From: Fimbriimonadaceae bacterium
GTDB taxonomy: Bacteria; Armatimonadota; Fimbriimonadia; Fimbriimonadales; Fimbriimonadaceae
Length of the DNA: 64,000 nt
Direction: 5' to 3'
NCBI GenBank assembly: GCA_026129685.1
Contig: JAHCHO010000004.1
Span: forward strand, 186,001 to 250,000
The translations under genes were made by a program, and so were the position numbers. Below the pieces are notes generated by a model that ran no database searches, had not been told where the DNA came from, and saw only the letters and a list, made by a program, of their open reading frames with translations. Positions 47,676-58,222 of this stretch are shown here, piece by piece (position 1 is the first letter of the stretch; the number at the start of each line of letters is the position of its first letter).

Positions 47676-50600
47676 CTAGTCCCCGGACTGCCCCATGTTG
47701 CGTCGCAACACCAGGAAGTCCGCGATCCCGACCGAGCCGTCCATATTGAGGTCCGCCATCGGGTTCCAGTTCGGGCTGGTCGAGTTCGAACCGAACGCCG
47801 CGCGCAGGAAGAGGAAGTCCGAGATGTTCACCGAGTTGTCCCCGTTGACGTCGCCGTTGATCAGGCTGAAGACGAGGGAACCGGCCCCCGTTGATGGGTC
47901 GATCGAGACGCGTCGGCGCAACCAGTGGGTCACCTTGAGGGTGACGTCGTAAGGGGCCAGCCTTGGGGAGGCGACGGTGAACTCCATGGCGGGACCGAGG
48001 TCCACGTCGGCGACGGCGAAGTTGGTGCCCGTCCCCGGTTCCTTGAACTCCAGTCGGATCGTTTGGACGAGGTCCAAACCCGCGACGACGTCCTGGTACG
48101 CGACCGACCCGCGCACGAGGAGGGGGCTGACCCGAAGGGTGTCGGTCGCCCTCCCGTTGAGTTCACCCGTGATCGTGACCGCGACCTCGTCCATCACCGC
48201 CGACGTCTCGACTTCGAACGTCGCCGTCGAGGACCCGGCGGGTACGACGACGCTGGGCCCGACCGAGGCGGCCGGGTTGTCCGACGAAAGCGCCACCGGG
48301 GTATCCGCATTGGCGGCAGCGTTCAGCCGCACGGTGCCCGAGACCTTGCCTCCCCCCGTGGCGCGTTCCACCGCGAGGACGAGCGATTCGATCGCGAGAC
48401 GACGGACGGTGACGTCGGCCGACCGCACTTGTCCGGATAGCGTGCCCGAAACGGTAACCACCTGATCCGTCCCTACGGGCGTGGTGGTGACGGCGAAGCT
48501 CGCCGACTTCTGGCCGGCGGGCACGGTGACCGACGCCGGTACGCTCAACACGGTGACCGTCGAAGACGAGAGGCTGATCAAGGTGCCTCCGGCGGGAGCG
48601 GCCGAGGGAAGCGCGACGTGCCCCACGGTGACGGCACCACCCTCGACGCTGGAGGGGGAGACCCAGAGCGAGTAGGCGGGCGGCGCGAGGACGACCGTCG
48701 TCTGCAGCGTTTCGCCGCCCGCCCGGACTTCCGCGAGAACCTCGGTCGCCTGGCTCACCGGCCTCGTCGTTCCGTTGAACTGAACCGCGGTTTCCCCTTC
48801 GGGAATCCGTACGGTCTCGGGCAAGGACACGAGCGGATCGGAGCAGAACAGGTCCAGATCGTAGCCGCCGACCGGAGCGGGGTGCGTGATCTCGACGACG
48901 CCAAGAATGCCATCGCCCCCGGGATGAGGTCCTCCGGGTACGCCCAGCGTCAGTTGCTTCAGCCGGCTTTCGCCAAGCTTGATGCGGTACATCCCCCGCC
49001 CCCAGGTCGCGCAGTTCAGGTATCCGGTGCCGGGGACGTATTGGAGGTGACGCACCTCGACGTTCGGCAACTTCAGGGGCTCGGTCGCGTTCTTCCAGGC
49101 CAGACCCCGGCTCGAGGTCATCAGAACCCCCACGTCGGTCCCCACGTACCAGGTGTTCTGCGGATCGTAGGGGTCGCGTTCGATCGTATTGACCGGGATA
49201 TCGGGGAGCGCGTTGGGGTCCGATCCGCGCCGATTGGCCCAAGTCACCGCCAAGGACCCAACCCCGGCGCCCGTGATCTCGCCCTCGTGCACGTGAACGG
49301 CGTTGGTGCCGCTGAAGGTCACGAGGATTCGGTTCAGGTTGCTGGCGTGCACGCTGATGTCTGTGACGGATCGGTTCGGCAGACCGACGATCGGCAGCGC
49401 TTGGGTCGCCCCGTTCGTCAGATTCACCGCGACGATTCGCCCATTGGTCGTGCCGACGTACATGCGGGAAGCCTGACCGACGGGGACGTGCATGCACGTG
49501 ATCGATCCAACGCCGCCGGGCATGGTGGCGAAGCTGTTCGTCCAGGTCGCGGTCTGGTTGTCCCAGCGGTAGATCGCGTTGGAGGAGGCCTGGTACACGA
49601 ATCGCGAGGTATTGAGGTCCATTTCCATCGGCACGATAAAGCCGAAGCTGCCGGAGCCCCTTTCGTCGTCGATGCGGGTCGGGTTCCAGTTGTCCGGGTC
49701 GTAGGTGTCCCACCCGTCGGTCGAACGGAAGATCCAGCCGTTCTGCGCGCTGGCGTACTGAACGAGGGGATCGGTCTGGTCGATCGCCGTCCAACCGCCG
49801 TCGCCTCCGCCCGAGTTGTCCCAGTTGTTCAGGTCGCCCAAACTGGTCGTCGTGGCGGTGTTGGGACTGGCGTTGTCCTGGGTTCCGCCGAGGATTCCGT
49901 TGGCCGCCGTCGGGTGGAACGAAGCGTGGTAGAACATCGCCAGGGAGAGGTTCGCGTTGAAGTTCTCCACGGTGGGGACACCCCCGTTCAACGTGACTCG
50001 GTAAGCGCCGCCGTCGTTGCCCAGCAGAAACTCGTTCGCCCGCGAAGGATGCCGGGTGAGCGCGTGCTGGTCGTTATGGGTGAGGGCGGGCGAGTTCTTC
50101 AGCCGATTGGGCGACGGTCCGGCCACGGTCGTTTGCCCCAGGTCGGTCCAGGTCCATCCGCTGTTCGCGGTCGGGTTGGCGCACATATAGAGGCCGGTTT
50201 GGCCCAGAACGACGACCTCGCTCCCGCCGGGTCCGTTTAGGACGGCGGCGATCGGGTAGTTGTAACCGCTCTGGGACCACCAGGTGTTCACGAAGTCCCC
50301 GGTGATGTTGGTCCACGATCCGCCGGCGTCGTTGCTCCGCCAGATCATGCCGGGGTTTCCGCCGGTGACGTTGCCCTGGGAGTCGAACGACTGGGCGCGG
50401 CTGACGAGGAGGTAGATGCGGTCGGGGGCGGTCGGGGAGCAGGCGAGTTGGTACATCGAAACGCCGCCGGAGATGCTCGGAAAAGCCGTCTGCGTCCAGG
50501 TCGCACCCCGGTTGCGCGATCGGTAGAGCCTTCCGCTCGTCCGAAGGGCGAAGTAGTTCCGCGATCCGTCGCTCGGACGAACCAGGCTCACGTCCAGGTC

Positions 50601-51464
50601 GCAGTAGTTGCCGGTGGGAACCGTCCCGCCACCGCTGAGGGTGGGAACCGCCCAGTCGAATCCGTTATTGGTGGTCCGATACACCTGACCGGTGCCGGCG
50701 CTCCCGCGCCCGCTCGTCGCGATCACGATATCCGGGTCTTCGGGATCGATCACGATGCCGCTGATGGCCTCGGAAGCCTGCTCCGGGGTCACCTGGTCCC
50801 AGGACAGGCCGAAGTTCGTGGACTTCATGATGCCCGCCCCCTGGATTCCGCCGCCGGGGTAGTCGCCGGTGCCCACGAAGATGCGGGCAAAGTTGGTCGG
50901 ATCGACCGCGATCGAGGACGTCTGGAGGGTGAGCCACCGGTCCGACATCGGGTTCCAAGCCGAGCCGTCGCTTTGGCTAATGAACAGGCCACCGGACGCC
51001 GCCCCGAGATAGAGGTTGTTGTCGTTTGACGGATCGTACGCCAGCGCGTTGACGCGGCCCGACACGGGCTTCGGTCCCCACCACCGCTTGTAAGGCACGT
51101 CGAGGTTCTTTGGACCGACCAGTTGCCACTTTCCGAGCGGAGCGTAGCGCCCCCGTACGCCACCGCGCTCCCGGGCGGGTTCGAGGGCATCGCGCTGGGC
51201 CGCCGCCCGGTTGTACGCGTCGGCATCGAGCCCGAAGTTGGGGTACTGCTTGGCGCGCATGTACCACTCAAAGGAGTCTTTCCATTCGCCGGCGGCCGAG
51301 CGGTCGGCGAACTCCCGTTCGAACGACGCCTCCGTGACTCGTGCGACCGAGGGGACGGAACCGACGGTGGCCGCGTCGCCCAGAGGTGGGCCGTTCAGGC
51401 CGGCTCTCCAGGCGACGAGTGCGAAGACGGAAAGGGCGATCAGGTAGATGGGCGCGCGCTTCAA
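47676..51464 (-). CDS. Secreted BNR/sortilin-like beta-propeller protein with Ig-like repeats and dockerin-like C-terminus
   Basis: A 1262-residue exported protein. A signal anchor (MKRAPIYLIALSVFALVAWRAG) precedes a roughly 780-residue propeller made of sialidase/VPS10-type blades, with repeated Asp-box-like phrases (IMKSTNFGLSWDQ; VYRTTNNGFDW; LYRSRNRGATW; IWRSNDAGGSW; VLMTSSRGLAWKN). Several beta-sandwich repeats follow, with TVVLAPPAYSLWVSPSSVEGG-like invasin/BIg-type phrasing and repeated SSTVTVLSVPASVTVPAGQ patterns. The C-terminus has a beta domain ending THWLRRRVSID and a double dockerin-like repeat (NGDVNGDNSVNISDFLFLRAAF; ADLNMDGSVGIADFLVLRRNM), nearly the same as in the gene at 9269. 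TTG 51464 is the start with GAGG upstream. Function unknown; surface binding is likely. Confidence 0.8.
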   Translation of the reverse strand: MKRAPIYLIALSVFALVAWRAGLNGPPLGDAATVGSVPSVARVTEASFEREFADRSAAGEWKDSFEWYMRAKQYPNFGLDADAYNRAAAQRDALEPARERGGVRGRYAPLGKWQLVGPKNLDVPYKRWWGPKPVSGRVNALAYDPSNDNNLYLGAASGGLFISQSDGSAWNPMSDRWLTLQTSSIAVDPTNFARIFVGTGDYPGGGIQGAGIMKSTNFGLSWDQVTPEQASEAISGIVIDPEDPDIVIATSGRGSAGTGQVYRTTNNGFDWAVPTLSGGGTVPTGNYCDLDVSLVRPSDGSRNYFALRTSGRLYRSRNRGATWTQTAFPSISGGVSMYQLACSPTAPDRIYLLVSRAQSFDSQGNVTGGNPGMIWRSNDAGGSWTNITGDFVNTWWSQSGYNYPIAAVLNGPGGSEVVVLGQTGLYMCANPTANSGWTWTDLGQTTVAGPSPNRLKNSPALTHNDQHALTRHPSRANEFLLGNDGGAYRVTLNGGVPTVENFNANLSLAMFYHASFHPTAANGILGGTQDNASPNTATTTSLGDLNNWDNSGGGDGGWTAIDQTDPLVQYASAQNGWIFRSTDGWDTYDPDNWNPTRIDDERGSGSFGFIVPMEMDLNTSRFVYQASSNAIYRWDNQTATWTNSFATMPGGVGSITCMHVPVGQASRMYVGTTNGRIVAVNLTNGATQALPIVGLPNRSVTDISVHASNLNRILVTFSGTNAVHVHEGEITGAGVGSLAVTWANRRGSDPNALPDIPVNTIERDPYDPQNTWYVGTDVGVLMTSSRGLAWKNATEPLKLPNVEVRHLQYVPGTGYLNCATWGRGMYRIKLGESRLKQLTLGVPGGPHPGGDGILGVVEITHPAPVGGYDLDLFCSDPLVSLPETVRIPEGETAVQFNGTTRPVSQATEVLAEVRAGGETLQTTVVLAPPAYSLWVSPSSVEGGAVTVGHVALPSAAPAGGTLISLSSSTVTVLSVPASVTVPAGQKSASFAVTTTPVGTDQVVTVSGTLSGQVRSADVTVRRLAIESLVLAVERATGGGKVSGTVRLNAAANADTPVALSSDNPAASVGPSVVVPAGSSTATFEVETSAVMDEVAVTITGELNGRATDTLRVSPLLVRGSVAYQDVVAGLDLVQTIRLEFKEPGTGTNFAVADVDLGPAMEFTVASPRLAPYDVTLKVTHWLRRRVSIDPSTGAGSLVFSLINGDVNGDNSVNISDFLFLRAAFGSNSTSPNWNPMADLNMDGSVGIADFLVLRRNMGQSGD

Positions 51465-52138: not shown

Positions 52139-53047
52139 CTACTCGACGTATTCCATTTCGCGCAGGGTCGTCGGATTCTCCCGCCAATCTTCGCGGACTT
52201 TAACGTAGAGGTCCAGATGCACCGGGCGCCCGAGGGTCTCTTCGATCTCCCGCCGGGATTCGGTGCCAACGTCGTGGACGAACCGGCCCTTTTCGCCAAT
52301 CAGAATCGCCTTCTGGCCGGACCTTTCGACGACGATCGTCGCGGCGATCCGGAGCCGCCCCGAGTCGTCCTCCTCCCACGACTCGACGACGACGCCCGTC
52401 GCGTGGGGGACTTCCTGTCGGGTTTTGAGAAGGATCCGCTCGCGAACGAGCTCGGCCACCATGAATCGGGAGGACTGGTCGGTGAACTCGTCCTCCGGGT
52501 AGGCGGGCGGACCTTCGGGAAGGCGTTCGACGATCATGGACACGAGCTTGTCAAGGTTGTGACCCTTGGTGGCGGTGGTCAGCATCGTATCGTCCTGCGT
52601 CACGCCAAGGAGCCTCGCATACGCCTCCACGTTGGGGAGGACGTGCTCCGGCTTGAGGAGGTCCATCTTGTTCAGGCACAGAACGAGCCGACCCTTGCCG
52701 CCGCCAAAGCCGGAGTCTGCGACCATCTTGGCGATGCGCTTCTCATCCTCGTCGGGACGAGCGGCGCCGTTCGCGACGTACAGGACCAGGTCCACGTCGG
52801 TCAGGGCCGAGCGAGCGGATTCGACCATCGCTTTGCCCAGGCGCGTGTGCGGTTCGTGAACCCCGGGGGTGTCCACGAACACGATCTGGTGGTCGGGCGC
52901 GGTGGCGATGCCTCGTAACCGTCGTCGGGTCGTCTGCTTCTTGTCGCTGACGATGGCGACCTTCTGGCCCACCATGGCGTTGACCAATGTGCTCTTGCCG
53001 ACGTTCGGCTTGCCGATCAGGGCGACGGTTCCGAAGCGGTGCGTCAT
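52139..53047 (-). CDS. era: GTPase Era
   Basis: A 302-residue Era GTPase acting in 30S ribosome assembly through 16S rRNA 3'-end binding. G1 is IGKPNVGKST (11-20), the switch I region KKQTTRRRLRG carries the G2 Thr, G3 is DTPG (59-62), and G4 (NKMD) and the ATKG G5 motif follow. The C-terminal KH domain is present, with VHLDLYVKVREDWRENPTTL and EKGRFVHDVG. It starts four nt after the end of the 1129-residue glycosidase-like gene and is followed by a hairpin terminator, so era closes a HAD phosphatase/glycosidase-like/era unit. Confidence 0.95.
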   Translation of the reverse strand: MTHRFGTVALIGKPNVGKSTLVNAMVGQKVAIVSDKKQTTRRRLRGIATAPDHQIVFVDTPGVHEPHTRLGKAMVESARSALTDVDLVLYVANGAARPDEDEKRIAKMVADSGFGGGKGRLVLCLNKMDLLKPEHVLPNVEAYARLLGVTQDDTMLTTATKGHNLDKLVSMIVERLPEGPPAYPEDEFTDQSSRFMVAELVRERILLKTRQEVPHATGVVVESWEEDDSGRLRIAATIVVERSGQKAILIGEKGRFVHDVGTESRREIEETLGRPVHLDLYVKVREDWRENPTTLREMEYVE

Positions 53048-53051
53048 CGGT

Positions 53052-56000
53052 CTATTCCCGCTTCCGGAACACGAAGTTCACTTCTTCGGGGGGCTCCGTG
53101 CTCGATCCTGCCCCCGGGCGCGAACCGTTGCCGGTGGGGGCGGGACCGCCCTTCTTGCGGCGGCGGCGCCTCCGCCTCCCGGTTCGGTCGCCCTCGTCGG
53201 GCGATTCGGCGGCGGTCGCCTCCTCTTCCTCGACGTCCTCAATCTTCGGCCAGAAGAACAGGTCGTCCACGCTTTCGTCGCCGAGGTCGCCCTCCATCCA
53301 TTCGCCGAGTTTGATGACCGGAACGTCAAAGTTAAGGGCGTCGAAGCTCACGCTGTCGGACCGCCGATCGGGAAGCTGGTCCATCGCCAACATCCCGTCG
53401 GGGTCGAGCGACAAGAAGGCTTCGATCTCGTGGCGAGGACCGACGAGGAAAACGTGGGTGGCGCCGTGGATGGCCTGGTACCGGATCTGCCTTCCTTCCT
53501 CGATCCAGGTCTCCGAGAGGAGGTCGAACGCGCACCATTTGTCCGGGAGCGTGATCGTTCTTGGACCGCTGCTGGTCGCGTGGACGACCAAGAACGGCGG
53601 GCGAACGTGCACCACGTCCTCGGTGTAGCTCCAGACGTGCGCGCCCGCCATCTGCGCCAAGGCTCGGATGAGGCTCGGGGTCACGGGGGGCTCGCCGAGA
53701 AACACCGACTTCCAGCTCGCGGCCGGGCCGCCTTCGCTGAACTCGCGCACGACGAAGCTCGGGAGGCCGGTCTGGGAGTACTCCCCAAGTACGGTGGCGT
53801 CCTCCGGGATGGCGAAGTAGCTTGGCTCGAGTTGGGCCCCGTCCACCCCGTGCCGCTCGTCGAAGCTCTCGCCGAGGGGATGACGGCGGTTCAGGATGGT
53901 CGTTCCGCTCTTGCTGTTGAACGGCTGTGGGCGAAGGGCGATGCCGGTGATCTCGCGAACGCGTTCGAGCGATTCGCGTCCCCCGTCGAACAGTCCCGTC
54001 AAGTAGAGCCAGAAGAGTACTTTGCCGTCTTTCTGGAGCCTCGACTTGATCGCGGAGCGGTACTCGGGCCGCATGTCCCACGCGTTCAGAAAGATCGAGA
54101 GCTTGCACTCGGGGAAGATCTCCCGGTGGGCCAGGTCGCTCAGAAGGTAGAAGCCCGCGCTCAAACCGGAGCGTAGAACCGCGTCTCGGACGTTCTTGAC
54201 GAGCAAGTTGAAGCCCGTGGGATCGGCGAGGTAAGCGAGCGACCGCTCGTCGATGAAGACCGCCACGTCGGGCGCGGCGGGCGGATTGGCGGTGCGTCGG
54301 ACGAGCAGGTCCTTGACCAACGAGCCCCGCGTCCAGATGCTCGACGTGCGAAGCCATCCGTTCCCCCAGAGGTCCATCCAGCACACGCCGGACCCGTGGG
54401 CCAGGGCCGCCCCCGCGCCGCGCCAGTGCACGCTCTCGAGCGCCTGCGGCGTCTTGATGACGGGGTTAAAGTCGTCGGGTTCCTGAAGGTTGCCGATCGA
54501 GGTCTTAAAGTCCTCCTCACTGACGTACAGCTTGCCGTTCAGCGCGAGGCTGTCGATCGGGCAAGGGAAGCTCGCCGTTTCGCCGGGGGACCGCTGCCGA
54601 TAGCTGGGCGGGCCGGCGATGAAGTCGATCTCCGGCGTTCGCAGGAGTTTGCCCAGCGACAAGTGGCCGCTGTAGGGATGGGACCACTCGAACGAATACC
54701 CGTAGCTCACGCCGACGAGGAAGTAGCCTTCGCTGGCAGCCTTGACCGCGTTGGCCAGTTCGCCGATCCGGAAGACGGTGGCGTCGCTGAGGAAGAGGTG
54801 GTAGTCCACCCAGCGACGGTCCTTTCGCGACGTGCGCATGAATCGGTCGCCGTGCTTGCCCGCGCGCTCGAACGGCGGGACGCTGACCGTCTTGAAGTCG
54901 GCGTCTCCGTCGAACCAGGCAGCCCGGAGGGACACGATGTCGTCGTTGTAGCGGGTCCGGGCCCAGTCGCGAAACTTCTCTTTGGCGGCGAGCGAGTTGT
55001 CGTAGCCGTTGTTCTCGGGATAGAACCACTCGCCACGGTCCAGGTGAACTCCCAGGATATGGTCGTTCTGGCCGAGCATCCGGAGTTGGCGTACGAACGA
55101 CTCGATGTTGTGCCGCGCAAGGCTCCAGAACTTGTCGTCGCACACGCTAGGGTCGGCCAGACTCCCGTCGAGCCAGTTGAACCGCGCTTTGGGGAACCGC
55201 GAGTCCCACCCCCGCGGCGCGACGAACAGCACGCGGAACAGGACCTGGGCGAGGGGATCGACCTCGAGGACCTTCTTGAGCAGGTAGGCCGCGAACTGGG
55301 TTGCGCTCGCGACGCCCTCATCGCCGACCTCCAGATCCACGAACAGCGAATGGACGTGGATTCCCGCGTCCGCCGCCAGGCGGATCTGCTCGAGTACGGT
55401 TTGCAGACGCTTTTCGTCCTGAGCGCTGCCGAAGAACCAGATTGCGGGATAGGCCCGCTTGTCCCGAACCAGCACGGGAGTCCCGTTTTGGAGGACGACC
55501 TGGGGCGCGTTCGGCGGAATCGCGACGGCGGGTCGAGGCGGTGCGGTCGGTCTGGGCTCCTCCTTCGCAACCGTCGGGGCGGCCTCTTTCACAGCGGGAG
55601 CAACGGCGGCCTCGGTTCGCGTCCCGCGTCCTCGGCGGGTTCGGGCCGGTCGGTCCCCGCGCGTTGGCTCCACTTCGGCTCCTTCGTGCGGCAACACGGG
55701 CACGGTCACGGCGCTTGGAGCCTGCTCGCCTCGCCCGCGTCGCTTGGCCTTGCCGCGCGTGGTCGCGCGCCAGTTCACGACGACACGCCCCTCCTCGTCG
55801 TCGATCGCAAAGTCCGACTCCGGTTCGGCGGCAACAGGAGGAACTTCGCCGATGATCTCCGCACGCGCTTCCGCGATCTCGTCTTCGCGACGGCGGCCGC
55901 GACGGCGCGAGCGGTTGCGGCGGGGGGCGGTGCGTTCCTCCGGTTCGTCTACGGGTGGCGGGACGACCGGAGGCGTGGGATCCACCGGCAGAGCGTCGAC

Positions 56001-56441
56001 GGTGACAGGATCCAACAGGGGTGGCCGGCGGCGGGTTCTGCCGGGCCTGCTCGCCACCGCCGGTTCCGCTTCGGGAGGGGGAGGCTCGCCGATCGGCTCC
56101 GCTTGGGCAACCTTCTTGCGGCCGCGGGAGACCTTAGCGGAAGGCGCCGTTTCTTCGTCCGGAGCCGTTTCCGACGGAGGCGGCTGCGGGGCGCGAGCCC
56201 GCTTCGTTTTGGCGGTCGCTCCCGGGTCCGCTTCGAGCGGCGGTTCGGCCGGATCGCGCGGAGCGGCTTCCGCCAACTTCGGGCTCCGGGCGCGCGGCCG
56301 CTTGTCGGCCCCGACCGACGCCTCGTCGGCCACCTCCACGGGCTTACGCCGGGCTCGGGTCCGGGGGGTCGGTTCGGAAGGGGTGATGCCGGATTCGATC
56401 GGGGTTTCGGAATTGTCGTCCGAGGCGTTACGTCTTCGCAT
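53052..56441 (-). CDS. Glycosidase-like (GH-A/GH42-type) protein with RNase E-like charged tails
   Basis: A 1129-residue cytoplasmic protein without signal peptide. Residues 1 to about 315 are low-complexity, rich in Pro, Glu, Ala and Arg, with arginine islands (RRNRSRRRGRRRE at 174-186; KAKRRGRGEQ at 231-240; RTRRGRGTR near 267-275). Residues about 330-1050 look like a clan GH-A TIM barrel plus beta domains: GVHLDRGEWFYPENNGYDNS with Glu471 as candidate acid/base, FRDWARTRYNDDIVSLRAAWFDG as in GH42 enzymes, and LYVSEEDFKT with Glu642/643 as candidate nucleophile. The last 68 residues are a Glu-rich then polybasic tail (GRRRRRRRKKGG). Such flanks typify RNase E/G-type RNA-binding scaffolds, not glycosidases. 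It overlaps the HAD gene by 14 nt and precedes era by four. Function unknown. Confidence 0.7.
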   Translation of the reverse strand: MRRRNASDDNSETPIESGITPSEPTPRTRARRKPVEVADEASVGADKRPRARSPKLAEAAPRDPAEPPLEADPGATAKTKRARAPQPPPSETAPDEETAPSAKVSRGRKKVAQAEPIGEPPPPEAEPAVASRPGRTRRRPPLLDPVTVDALPVDPTPPVVPPPVDEPEERTAPRRNRSRRRGRRREDEIAEARAEIIGEVPPVAAEPESDFAIDDEEGRVVVNWRATTRGKAKRRGRGEQAPSAVTVPVLPHEGAEVEPTRGDRPARTRRGRGTRTEAAVAPAVKEAAPTVAKEEPRPTAPPRPAVAIPPNAPQVVLQNGTPVLVRDKRAYPAIWFFGSAQDEKRLQTVLEQIRLAADAGIHVHSLFVDLEVGDEGVASATQFAAYLLKKVLEVDPLAQVLFRVLFVAPRGWDSRFPKARFNWLDGSLADPSVCDDKFWSLARHNIESFVRQLRMLGQNDHILGVHLDRGEWFYPENNGYDNSLAAKEKFRDWARTRYNDDIVSLRAAWFDGDADFKTVSVPPFERAGKHGDRFMRTSRKDRRWVDYHLFLSDATVFRIGELANAVKAASEGYFLVGVSYGYSFEWSHPYSGHLSLGKLLRTPEIDFIAGPPSYRQRSPGETASFPCPIDSLALNGKLYVSEEDFKTSIGNLQEPDDFNPVIKTPQALESVHWRGAGAALAHGSGVCWMDLWGNGWLRTSSIWTRGSLVKDLLVRRTANPPAAPDVAVFIDERSLAYLADPTGFNLLVKNVRDAVLRSGLSAGFYLLSDLAHREIFPECKLSIFLNAWDMRPEYRSAIKSRLQKDGKVLFWLYLTGLFDGGRESLERVREITGIALRPQPFNSKSGTTILNRRHPLGESFDERHGVDGAQLEPSYFAIPEDATVLGEYSQTGLPSFVVREFSEGGPAASWKSVFLGEPPVTPSLIRALAQMAGAHVWSYTEDVVHVRPPFLVVHATSSGPRTITLPDKWCAFDLLSETWIEEGRQIRYQAIHGATHVFLVGPRHEIEAFLSLDPDGMLAMDQLPDRRSDSVSFDALNFDVPVIKLGEWMEGDLGDESVDDLFFWPKIEDVEEEEATAAESPDEGDRTGRRRRRRRKKGGPAPTGNGSRPGAGSSTEPPEEVNFVFRKRE

Positions 56442-57126
56442 GATGCAGAGAAATGAAATCGTGAGTCCAGGCTAGGAGGTCCTCGGGCGTCTCGAACCAT
56501 AGATCGGGTTCGGTCGCGCGCAAGGCCTCAGCGGTCGATGCGCCGTAGGATACGGCGGCGAATGGGCAACCCGCGCTCTTGGCGCAAGCGGCATCGTGAA
56601 CGGAATCGCCCACGAAGAGCGCTTCGCTTGGGTGCACGCCAAGGCGCGCGCACGCGAGCGTTGCGGGTTCGGCGTCCGGCTTGGGACGGGTGACGTCCGA
56701 GGCGCAGACGAAGGTGTCCACACTCTCCCGCGCGGGAAAGCGGACGAGGAAATTCTGGAGTTCCACCCGATTCCGGCTCGTCACGAGACCGACCGCATAG
56801 CCGGAGCGTTTGAAGGCGACCATCGAGTCGATGGCGGCCACGAACGGCCTCTCTCGGTGTTCGTGGACCTGGTAGCGGGAGATCGTGTACGCCACCCTTT
56901 CCCGGACCTCGTCGTCGGAAAGGGGCCGGTCGGTGAACAAGCGCGTCTGGGTGGTCAGAGGGAGGCCGATGAAGCCCATGAGCCACTCGTCGGACGGTCG
57001 ATGCCCCTCGAAGTGTTCGACGCCGTCGCCCAACCCTCCGAGAATCATGCCCAGACTGTCCACAAGGGTGCCGTCAACGTCGTACAAAACCGCCTTCAAG
57101 GCGGCGGGATCGAGCGTTCTCGGCAT
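56428..57126 (-). CDS. HAD-family phosphatase (phosphoglycolate phosphatase-like)
   Basis: A 232-residue haloacid-dehalogenase hydrolase of the Gph/beta-phosphoglucomutase type. Motif I is YDVDGTLVDS (nucleophile and acid-base Asp), motif II lies in VGLVTSRNR, motif III Lys in TRPKPDAEP, and motif IV is FVGDSVHDAACAKSAG. A helical cap (about residues 22-90) fits subtype C1. A TTG three codons upstream (57135) is an alternative, but a CATACT hexamer ends there, eight nt before ATG 57126, which I prefer. It heads a unit with the glycosidase-like gene (14-nt overlap) and era. Substrate is not predictable. Confidence 0.85.
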   Translation of the reverse strand: MPRTLDPAALKAVLYDVDGTLVDSLGMILGGLGDGVEHFEGHRPSDEWLMGFIGLPLTTQTRLFTDRPLSDDEVRERVAYTISRYQVHEHRERPFVAAIDSMVAFKRSGYAVGLVTSRNRVELQNFLVRFPARESVDTFVCASDVTRPKPDAEPATLACARLGVHPSEALFVGDSVHDAACAKSAGCPFAAVSYGASTAEALRATEPDLWFETPEDLLAWTHDFISLHHAKT

Positions 57127-57163
57127 CTCGGACAAGTATGACAGATTCGTTCGGTCGCGCCGG

Positions 57164-58222
57164 TCACGGAGCGTCGGCCTGGCGTTCGCTTCGCCAAACG
57201 CGCGAGTCTTGGGCGATGTGCCATCGGACTCGCTTCGCCGGGTCGAGCGTCGTTTCCGCGACCACTTCGAACGTCTCGTCTCCCGGGTAAAGGCTCATTC
57301 GGGTGACAAGATGGGGAAGCTGGCCGAGGTCGAGTTCGTCGATCGATTTCGGCCAACGACCGTGGTTGCCTCGGTAGGCGTGGAGAGCGTAGTAGGCTTG
57401 GTGTAGCCGGTCACGGATCGGTCCGGCGGGGTCTGGGCGGTAGGCGTCCGAACCCGGTTCGGCGGTCGAGAACTGCAAGTACCCCCACCGTTCGGGACGG
57501 TGCATATCGATGACTCCCTGCGGCGACCAGACCCAATTATGCTCGGGACGGCCGGGAATCTTGCGCGTCCCGCCGTCCGCCACCTCCACGTCCCACTCGA
57601 CGCGCGAAAAGTTGATCCGCCACTGATCGCCATGCCTCGGCGGGCACGGAACGCCCGCGCACTCTTCGAGCGCAGACCAGGGAATGGCGATCTCAACGTT
57701 CCATCCCTTGTCGTCGTCGGAGGGATCGTTCAGGCTGCCCATCACATGGACGGCGGTACGCGTCCCCGGCATCTCCCAGTTGTCCACCGCAGGCCCGCCG
57801 TCGCGGTACGGCCGAGGGAGCAAGAGGTCCCACGTCGTGTTCAAGGCGTTCATCTCGAACTCCGTGTAGCGGTGGTTGTCACCGTCGGGGTCGAGGAACA
57901 CCTCGAAGTCGTTGTCCTGAAAGATGACGGAGTCGTGCTCGGTGAGGGTGGCCCAGACGTTCGGCTCCTCCAGTTCGGCACCAATGTAAAGGAACTTATC
58001 GTCCCAGAGCATCTTCATGCGCGTGCGGAAGCGAGGCTTTGGCTTCTTATCGCCCTCGATGTCGACGAAGTCGTCGCTCCAAGGGGCGGAGTCCCACGGC
58101 GGTTCGTCGAGGCGCCCGTCGATCGTGAGCAACGCGGACGCTCGGTAACAGACGTAGCCTTTCGGCGGTGTCGAAAAGTCGGGTTGGGCAAGGCTCATAA
58201 GGGCGGCGAGGGCACAGAGCAC
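57164..58222 (-). CDS. Secreted CBM9-like carbohydrate-binding protein
   Basis: A 352-residue protein with a short signal (MLCALAALMSLAQP; GTG start at 58222) and a carbohydrate-binding-family-9-like beta sandwich: YRASALLTIDGRLDEPPWDSAPWSDDF, RTRMKMLWDDKFLYIGAELEEPNVWATL, VIFQDNDFEVFLDPDGDNHRYTEFEMNALNTTWDL-type (57790-57930), GWNVEIAIPWSALE and WRINFSRVEWD. The C-terminal 80 residues are a separate helical region (HQAYYALHAYRGNHGRWPKSIDEL). This type of CBM9-like domain is widespread in polysaccharide-degrading bacteria and may bind sugars at the cell surface. It is divergent from the aldolase gene. Confidence 0.82.
   Translation of the reverse strand: MLCALAALMSLAQPDFSTPPKGYVCYRASALLTIDGRLDEPPWDSAPWSDDFVDIEGDKKPKPRFRTRMKMLWDDKFLYIGAELEEPNVWATLTEHDSVIFQDNDFEVFLDPDGDNHRYTEFEMNALNTTWDLLLPRPYRDGGPAVDNWEMPGTRTAVHVMGSLNDPSDDDKGWNVEIAIPWSALEECAGVPCPPRHGDQWRINFSRVEWDVEVADGGTRKIPGRPEHNWVWSPQGVIDMHRPERWGYLQFSTAEPGSDAYRPDPAGPIRDRLHQAYYALHAYRGNHGRWPKSIDELDLGQLPHLVTRMSLYPGDETFEVVAETTLDPAKRVRWHIAQDSRVWRSERQADAP

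Follow-up and report, generated by a model that had tools for sequence, protein, structure and literature searches.

A GH42-like protein with disordered arginine-rich tails in Armatimonadota: a possible scaffold derived from a glycosidase

Described relatives and layout of the locus

The described proteins closest to the one analysed here are the GH42 beta-galactosidases (3tts, 1kwg, 5e9a; PF02449). They have in common with it a three-domain architecture over the whole core; a Glu after strand 4 and a Glu at strand 7 of its barrel, as judged from strand order and conservation, would match theirs. An Asn directly before the acid/base Glu is typical of clan GH-A. The present protein differs from them in being sub-threshold in Pfam, in having tails, in the recurrent loss of Glu among its orthologues and in having a Gly (HLDRGEW) where a GH42 protein (WHVSNE) has that Asn.

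A second point of comparison is the RNase E scaffold (E. coli, Pseudomonas, Caulobacter, cyanobacteria), which likewise joins a folded core to a disordered tail, arginine-rich and provided with short docking motifs. The Pseudomonas enzyme binds RNA through arginine-rich linear motifs, in the Caulobacter and cyanobacterial enzymes motifs of the GWWRR and RRRRRRSSA types bind PNPase, and RRRRRRSSA and APPEKPRRGWWRR are quoted as PNPase-binding motifs of RNase E (PMC11964227). A disordered region with conserved linear motifs, by which such degradosome scaffolds are defined, is also present in our protein, which differs in that it lacks a nuclease domain, is tailed at its two ends and carries another motif. 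A third parallel is offered by the fungal Dis3/RNase II pseudonucleases, presented in PMC8097288 as pseudoenzymes turned RNA-binding, with repeated loss of catalytic residues and retention of the protein; fold and kingdom are different, and for the protein described here RNA binding is something that we infer.

The gene is located in a stretch of 64,000 nucleotides from a Fimbriimonadaceae bacterium (the window), to which the following positions refer:

52139..53047, minus strand: era, the downstream neighbour, 4 nt from the GH42-like gene (NF000908)
53052..56441, minus strand: whole gene, N-tail, GH42-like core and C-tail, 1129 aa (ORF with ATG start)
53055..53081, minus strand: C-terminal linear motif VNFVFRKRE-COOH, residues 1121-1129 (register conserved in families f1, f2, f4 and f5)
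53055..53321, minus strand: disordered C-tail, residues 1041-1129 (orthologue comparison)
53151..53177, minus strand: polybasic run RRRRRRRKK, residues 1089-1097 (C-tail sequence)
53322..55526, minus strand: folded core, residues 306-1040 (735 aa), predicted as TIM barrel, GATase-like domain and C-terminal beta domain in the GH42 order (AlphaFold and fold searches)
54516..54518, minus strand: E642 (YVSEEDF), candidate nucleophile close to where barrel strand 7 ends (conservation and strand position)
55029..55031, minus strand: E471, candidate acid/base, 3 residues past barrel strand 4 (HLDRGEW; conservation and strand position)
55527..56441, minus strand: disordered N-tail, residues 1-305, rich in Pro/Ala/Glu/Arg, with several arginine islands (hydrophobic-poor, codon frame, orthologues)
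55755..55784, minus strand: N-tail motif copy VVVNWRATTR, residues 220-229 (matches the aromatic-Arg motif)
55887..55922, minus strand: arginine island RRNRSRRRGRRR, residues 174-185 (N-tail sequence)
56428..57135, minus strand: HAD phosphatase, PpaX/phosphoglycolate phosphatase-like, upstream, overlapping the GH42-like gene by 14 nt (scores below equivalog cut-offs)

On re-reading, the open reading frame, its strand and length, the 14-nt overlap with the HAD gene and the 4-nt gap to era matched the original prediction exactly. The downstream neighbour can be called Era, a ribosome-assembly GTPase, with firm support from its NCBIfam profile (347 bits versus a cut-off of 237). The possibility that the tails belong to an over-long ORF was ruled out by codon usage (the N-tail frame is the best or near-best throughout), by the conservation of the tails and by the start that overlaps the HAD gene. 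Directly upstream of the HAD gene lies a gene for a CBM9-domain protein (57164..58222, minus strand; Pfam 3.3e-11), which is absent beside the GH42-like gene in the loci read, many of these being too short to reveal it. Elsewhere in the window, 47676..51464 (minus strand) encodes a probably secreted protein of 1262 aa with dockerin-like repeats at its end (DVNGDNSVNISDFLFLRAAFG...DLNMDGSVGIADFLVLRRNMGQSGD); a similar ending, LRANLGQSGDA, is found in another gene of the same genome (L143, 12278-15604).

The glycosidase fold announced in the original prediction was borne out by structure prediction and fold search. The model of residues 306-1040 reached a pLDDT of 91.8 and a pTM of 0.93, and Foldseek together with VIA-align ranked GH42 beta-galactosidases first for the full core. 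The best PDB match was 3tts (E = 1.1e-24, Z = 22.8, rmsd 3.6 over 601 residues, 14% identity); the beta-galactosidase 1kwg gave a Z of 21.7. Chains of GH35, GH5 and GH164 follow at only slightly lower scores, so the fold by itself does not decide to which family the core belongs; the core is also close to a beta-1,2-glucosyltransferase. At the sequence level, searching the PDB with the single 1129-aa protein returned no match, a profile search with the orthologues reached 1.7e-4, and profile-profile alignment with GH42 proteins extended over 651 columns (probability 98.6). The protein alone scored 11.8 bits against Pfam GH42 (PF02449; E = 0.15), under the curated cut-off of 21, and matched no NCBIfam family; 45 of 61 orthologues matched the Pfam family at E up to 1, the best at 4.2e-9. 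A true GH42 is encoded separately in the same genome. A phage or plasmid origin was ruled out, there being no match in the phage and plasmid collections searched and no PHROG.

Distribution, neighbours and candidate catalytic residues

The protein, single copy in its own genome, is spread as a single-copy protein over several classes of Armatimonadota. Within its own family almost every genome gave a match, and across the phylum 231 of 291 genomes did, paralogues being counted as well. When a panel of 19 genomes was searched with a profile built from 61 orthologues, the full-length hits separated into two groups, orthologues at 800-940 bits and paralogues at 463 bits or less; the orthologues read come from families f1-f5, f10-f14 and f19. 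By a simple hydropathy test, most low-scoring paralogues start with a signal-like N-terminus, and they stop where the core does, whereas the orthologues have tails and no export signal. This contrast and the bimodality of the scores argue that the orthologues form a cytoplasmic group descended from a secreted family. By hydropathy alone, with a peak 19-residue mean above 1.0 within the N-terminal 60 aa as the criterion, a signal peptide was indicated in 2 of 72 orthologues and not in the window protein. An overlooked signal peptide was thus rejected, on the hydropathy of the orthologues and the contrast with the paralogues, and the cytoplasmic location first proposed now appears sound on sequence grounds.

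The GH42-like paralogues (L210-L235) belong to a large, mostly secreted-looking family with many copies per genome (up to about ten or more in other classes) in several Armatimonadota classes, possibly an unassigned glycosidase family. They have the same domain and the same conserved blocks (GEWF, within NTGEWF; NEDDTRT; WMDL); unlike the protein described here they mostly have signal-like N-termini, lack the C-tail and the basic islands, and score much lower.

The order HAD-GH42-like gene-era, part of the original prediction, stands in part. Downstream era is found in 64 of 66 loci of families f1, f2, f4 and f5, but in none of 25 loci from other families, which keep the protein and its tails without it; era is therefore not the defining partner. 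The HAD gene is upstream in f3 (4/4), in f19 (3/3) and in about half of the f1, f2, f4 and f5 loci, so that this adjacency looks older than that of era. No constant neighbour was seen in the loci of other classes.

E471 and E642 are candidates for the acid/base and nucleophile, occupying the usual clan GH-A positions as read from strand order and conservation. Among 92 aligned orthologues, E471 is kept in 79, E642 in 81 and both in 77, and the same two Glu are retained in most paralogues (NTGEWF, NEDDTRT). Several lineages have lost Glu: at least five changes are required on a maximum likelihood tree computed without the E471 and E642 columns, and well-supported branches enforce three of these changes; the topology is provisional, as it comes from a quick search. 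One clade of 10 sequences from several genera contains nine without both Glu and one without E471 only; it keeps the tails, the motif and the era neighbour, and for one member, L181, the structure was predicted with a confidence equal to that for the window protein (pLDDT 90.8). Its pocket shows other changes, for instance YGYTFEWSHP to YGLSLENTYP and GHLSLG to GQLSLG, while W472, D481, R617, K637, D644 and D690 are invariant despite the loss of Glu.

These observations bear on the main rival explanation, in which the protein is an active glycoside hydrolase or transglycosidase that processes an internal glycan in the cytoplasm. The tails would then only position the enzyme (in a condensate, or on a membrane, a polyanion or a polysaccharide granule), and the clade without Glu would represent a side branch. 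This explanation would agree with the presence of the pair in most orthologues and secreted paralogues, with its clan GH-A placement and with a fold near both GH42 and a beta-1,2-glucosyltransferase. It accounts less well for lineages that lost Glu yet keep fold, tails and motif, for neighbourhoods in which no carbohydrate gene recurs consistently, and for the sequence R-G-E, in which the Asn of clan GH-A is replaced. We regard it as rather unlikely, though it must be taken seriously. Because both Glu are found in the large majority of orthologues, catalysis is probably still of importance in most lineages; because Glu was lost repeatedly and one clade nonetheless keeps fold, tails, motif and era, the tails, and not hydrolysis, are the persistent feature. 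Hydrolysis, to go by the sequences, is probably kept in most lineages yet is probably not what keeps the gene, and the retention of the ends where the cutting residues are lost suggests a second, non-enzymatic job.

Tails, basic runs and the aromatic-Arg motif

The tails of the original prediction are real and recur in orthologues, so the possibility that they would not be conserved does not hold. A disordered N-tail (about 95 to 450 aa) is present in every orthologue read; nearly all also have a C-tail, in which a basic run is usual. Two apparently tailless orthologues (L029 and L070) were rejected as such, the tail being found upstream in another frame. At least two runs of at least three R/K occur in 74 of 89 N-tails, against 36 expected from shuffled tails, and a run of at least four R/K in 70 of 91 C-tails against 7 expected; these shuffle controls, like that for the motif below, ignore shared ancestry. 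The net charge of the N-tail varies from -27 to +34 among orthologues, so the tails are mixed-charge rather than uniformly basic. In the 41% of the genome covered by a rough gene caller, no other frame-supported gene combined a long hydrophobic-poor stretch with at least three basic islands; a poly-Arg DNA pattern applied genome-wide was too permissive to use.

Arginine islands within Pro/Ala-rich linkers could also be those of a DNA- or nucleoid-binding protein whose islands contact the chromosome, a reading that we consider improbable: nothing in the data is DNA-specific, the nearest conserved gene is the one for the ribosome-assembly GTPase, and runs that are rich in R or resemble RGG are no less typical of binding to RNA.

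The likeness to RNase E, after which the tails were originally named, holds for composition only, since the RNase E/G of the same genome (G000:C14:235148) has no such tails; Pfam found no RNase E/G catalytic domain in the GH42-like protein. A search for RNase E/G carrying the same tails found none in the protein's own family, only a short basic end in two f10 genomes: the f10 enzymes L320 and L321 have short polybasic tails (RGRRRRRRGGQRTGAAA; NKRRRRKKNRDTQSA) that resemble the C-tail.

In the Fimbriimonas-type families (f1, f2, f4 and f5) the protein ends in [MLIV][NS][VI][MVL]FR[KR][KR][DE], with the F-R register kept in 66 of 66 sequences and F fifth from the C-terminus in 62. The related pattern [VIL]x0-2[WF]R is found in 60 of the 64 N-tails of these families, against 9.7 expected; 300 shuffle runs never gave more than 18 such tails. 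The N-tail copies number one to five and are degenerate, the fullest form being E/D-L-P-V-P-T-[WF]-R-P-R. Only 1 of 25 sequences from other families has the motif; related C-terminal strings occur in f3 (IIAVQWRR, LTIMWRK). Its fixation within otherwise barely alignable sequence points to selection, and by analogy it bears a likeness to the PNPase-type motifs of RNase E. A tag common to many proteins was rejected, the 41% of the genome covered yielding no other convincing case. An earlier DNA pattern for the C-terminal motif had no match, and the pattern used here, which misses this gene's own variant NFVFRKRE, showed no excess over control.

That the protein is a cell-division adaptor or decoy, with [DE]LP[VI]P[TIV][WF]RxR copies in the N-tail mimicking the FtsZ C-terminal peptide and competing for its receptors, seems very improbable: these copies do resemble the FtsZ ends DIDIPAFIREH and DLDIPTFLRRQ, and FtsZ has the only other disordered segment of similar pattern in the same 41%, but the likeness was noticed after the fact, no Leu/Ile separates the aromatic residue from Arg in the present protein, the Pro-type copy is limited to 20 of 66 tails, and both the C-terminal copy and the window's own N-tail copy are without Pro. 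The genome contains two ftsZ genes (G000:C11:204073-205047 and G000:C14:106184-107122), as do nearly all Fimbriimonas-family genomes examined; they form two groups, one with a DIDIPAFIREH-like and the other with a DLDIPTFLRRQ-like end.

A possible scaffold of glycosidase origin

The reading that we tentatively prefer, at somewhat short of an even chance, is that of a domesticated glycosidase serving as a scaffold, with a presumed RNA association through RNP or partner binding. A phylum-specific, single-copy cytoplasmic protein would have arisen from a secreted GH42-like glycosidase, this being the direction of descent that we infer, by (i) loss of the export signal, (ii) gain of disordered tails with arginine islands at both ends and (iii), in the Fimbriimonas-type families, addition and repetition of an aromatic-Arg docking motif, one copy of which is always C-terminal. 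By analogy, the arginine islands would bind nucleic acid, most likely RNA; the motif would dock a partner protein, the core would act as a ligand-binding or catalytic platform, and the whole would serve as a scaffold associated with ribonucleoproteins; the adjoining era may hint at a role close to ribosome assembly.

The glycosidase fold and the idea of a disordered scaffold are already known. The two strongest findings, both absent from the original prediction, are the repeated [WF]R motif and the fact that the candidate catalytic Glu were lost more than once. In the literature searched, with few subscription journals covered, we found no paper describing this protein, nor the combination of this fold, a distribution over several classes, repeated Glu loss and a C-terminal motif.

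If the scaffold reading is true, a secreted carbohydrate enzyme became a conserved internal scaffold that shed catalysis more than once. A more ambitious version, which we put forward as doubtful, is that of a new class of bacterial hub protein in Armatimonadota: a domesticated, partly pseudo-enzymatic glycosidase fold, with a docking motif present in several copies on its disordered tails and one copy fixed C-terminally, would organise a body for RNA processing or for the assembly of ribosomes. The nine-residue C-terminal peptide would provide a precise bait for the partner, in a phylum for which hardly any molecular cell biology exists.
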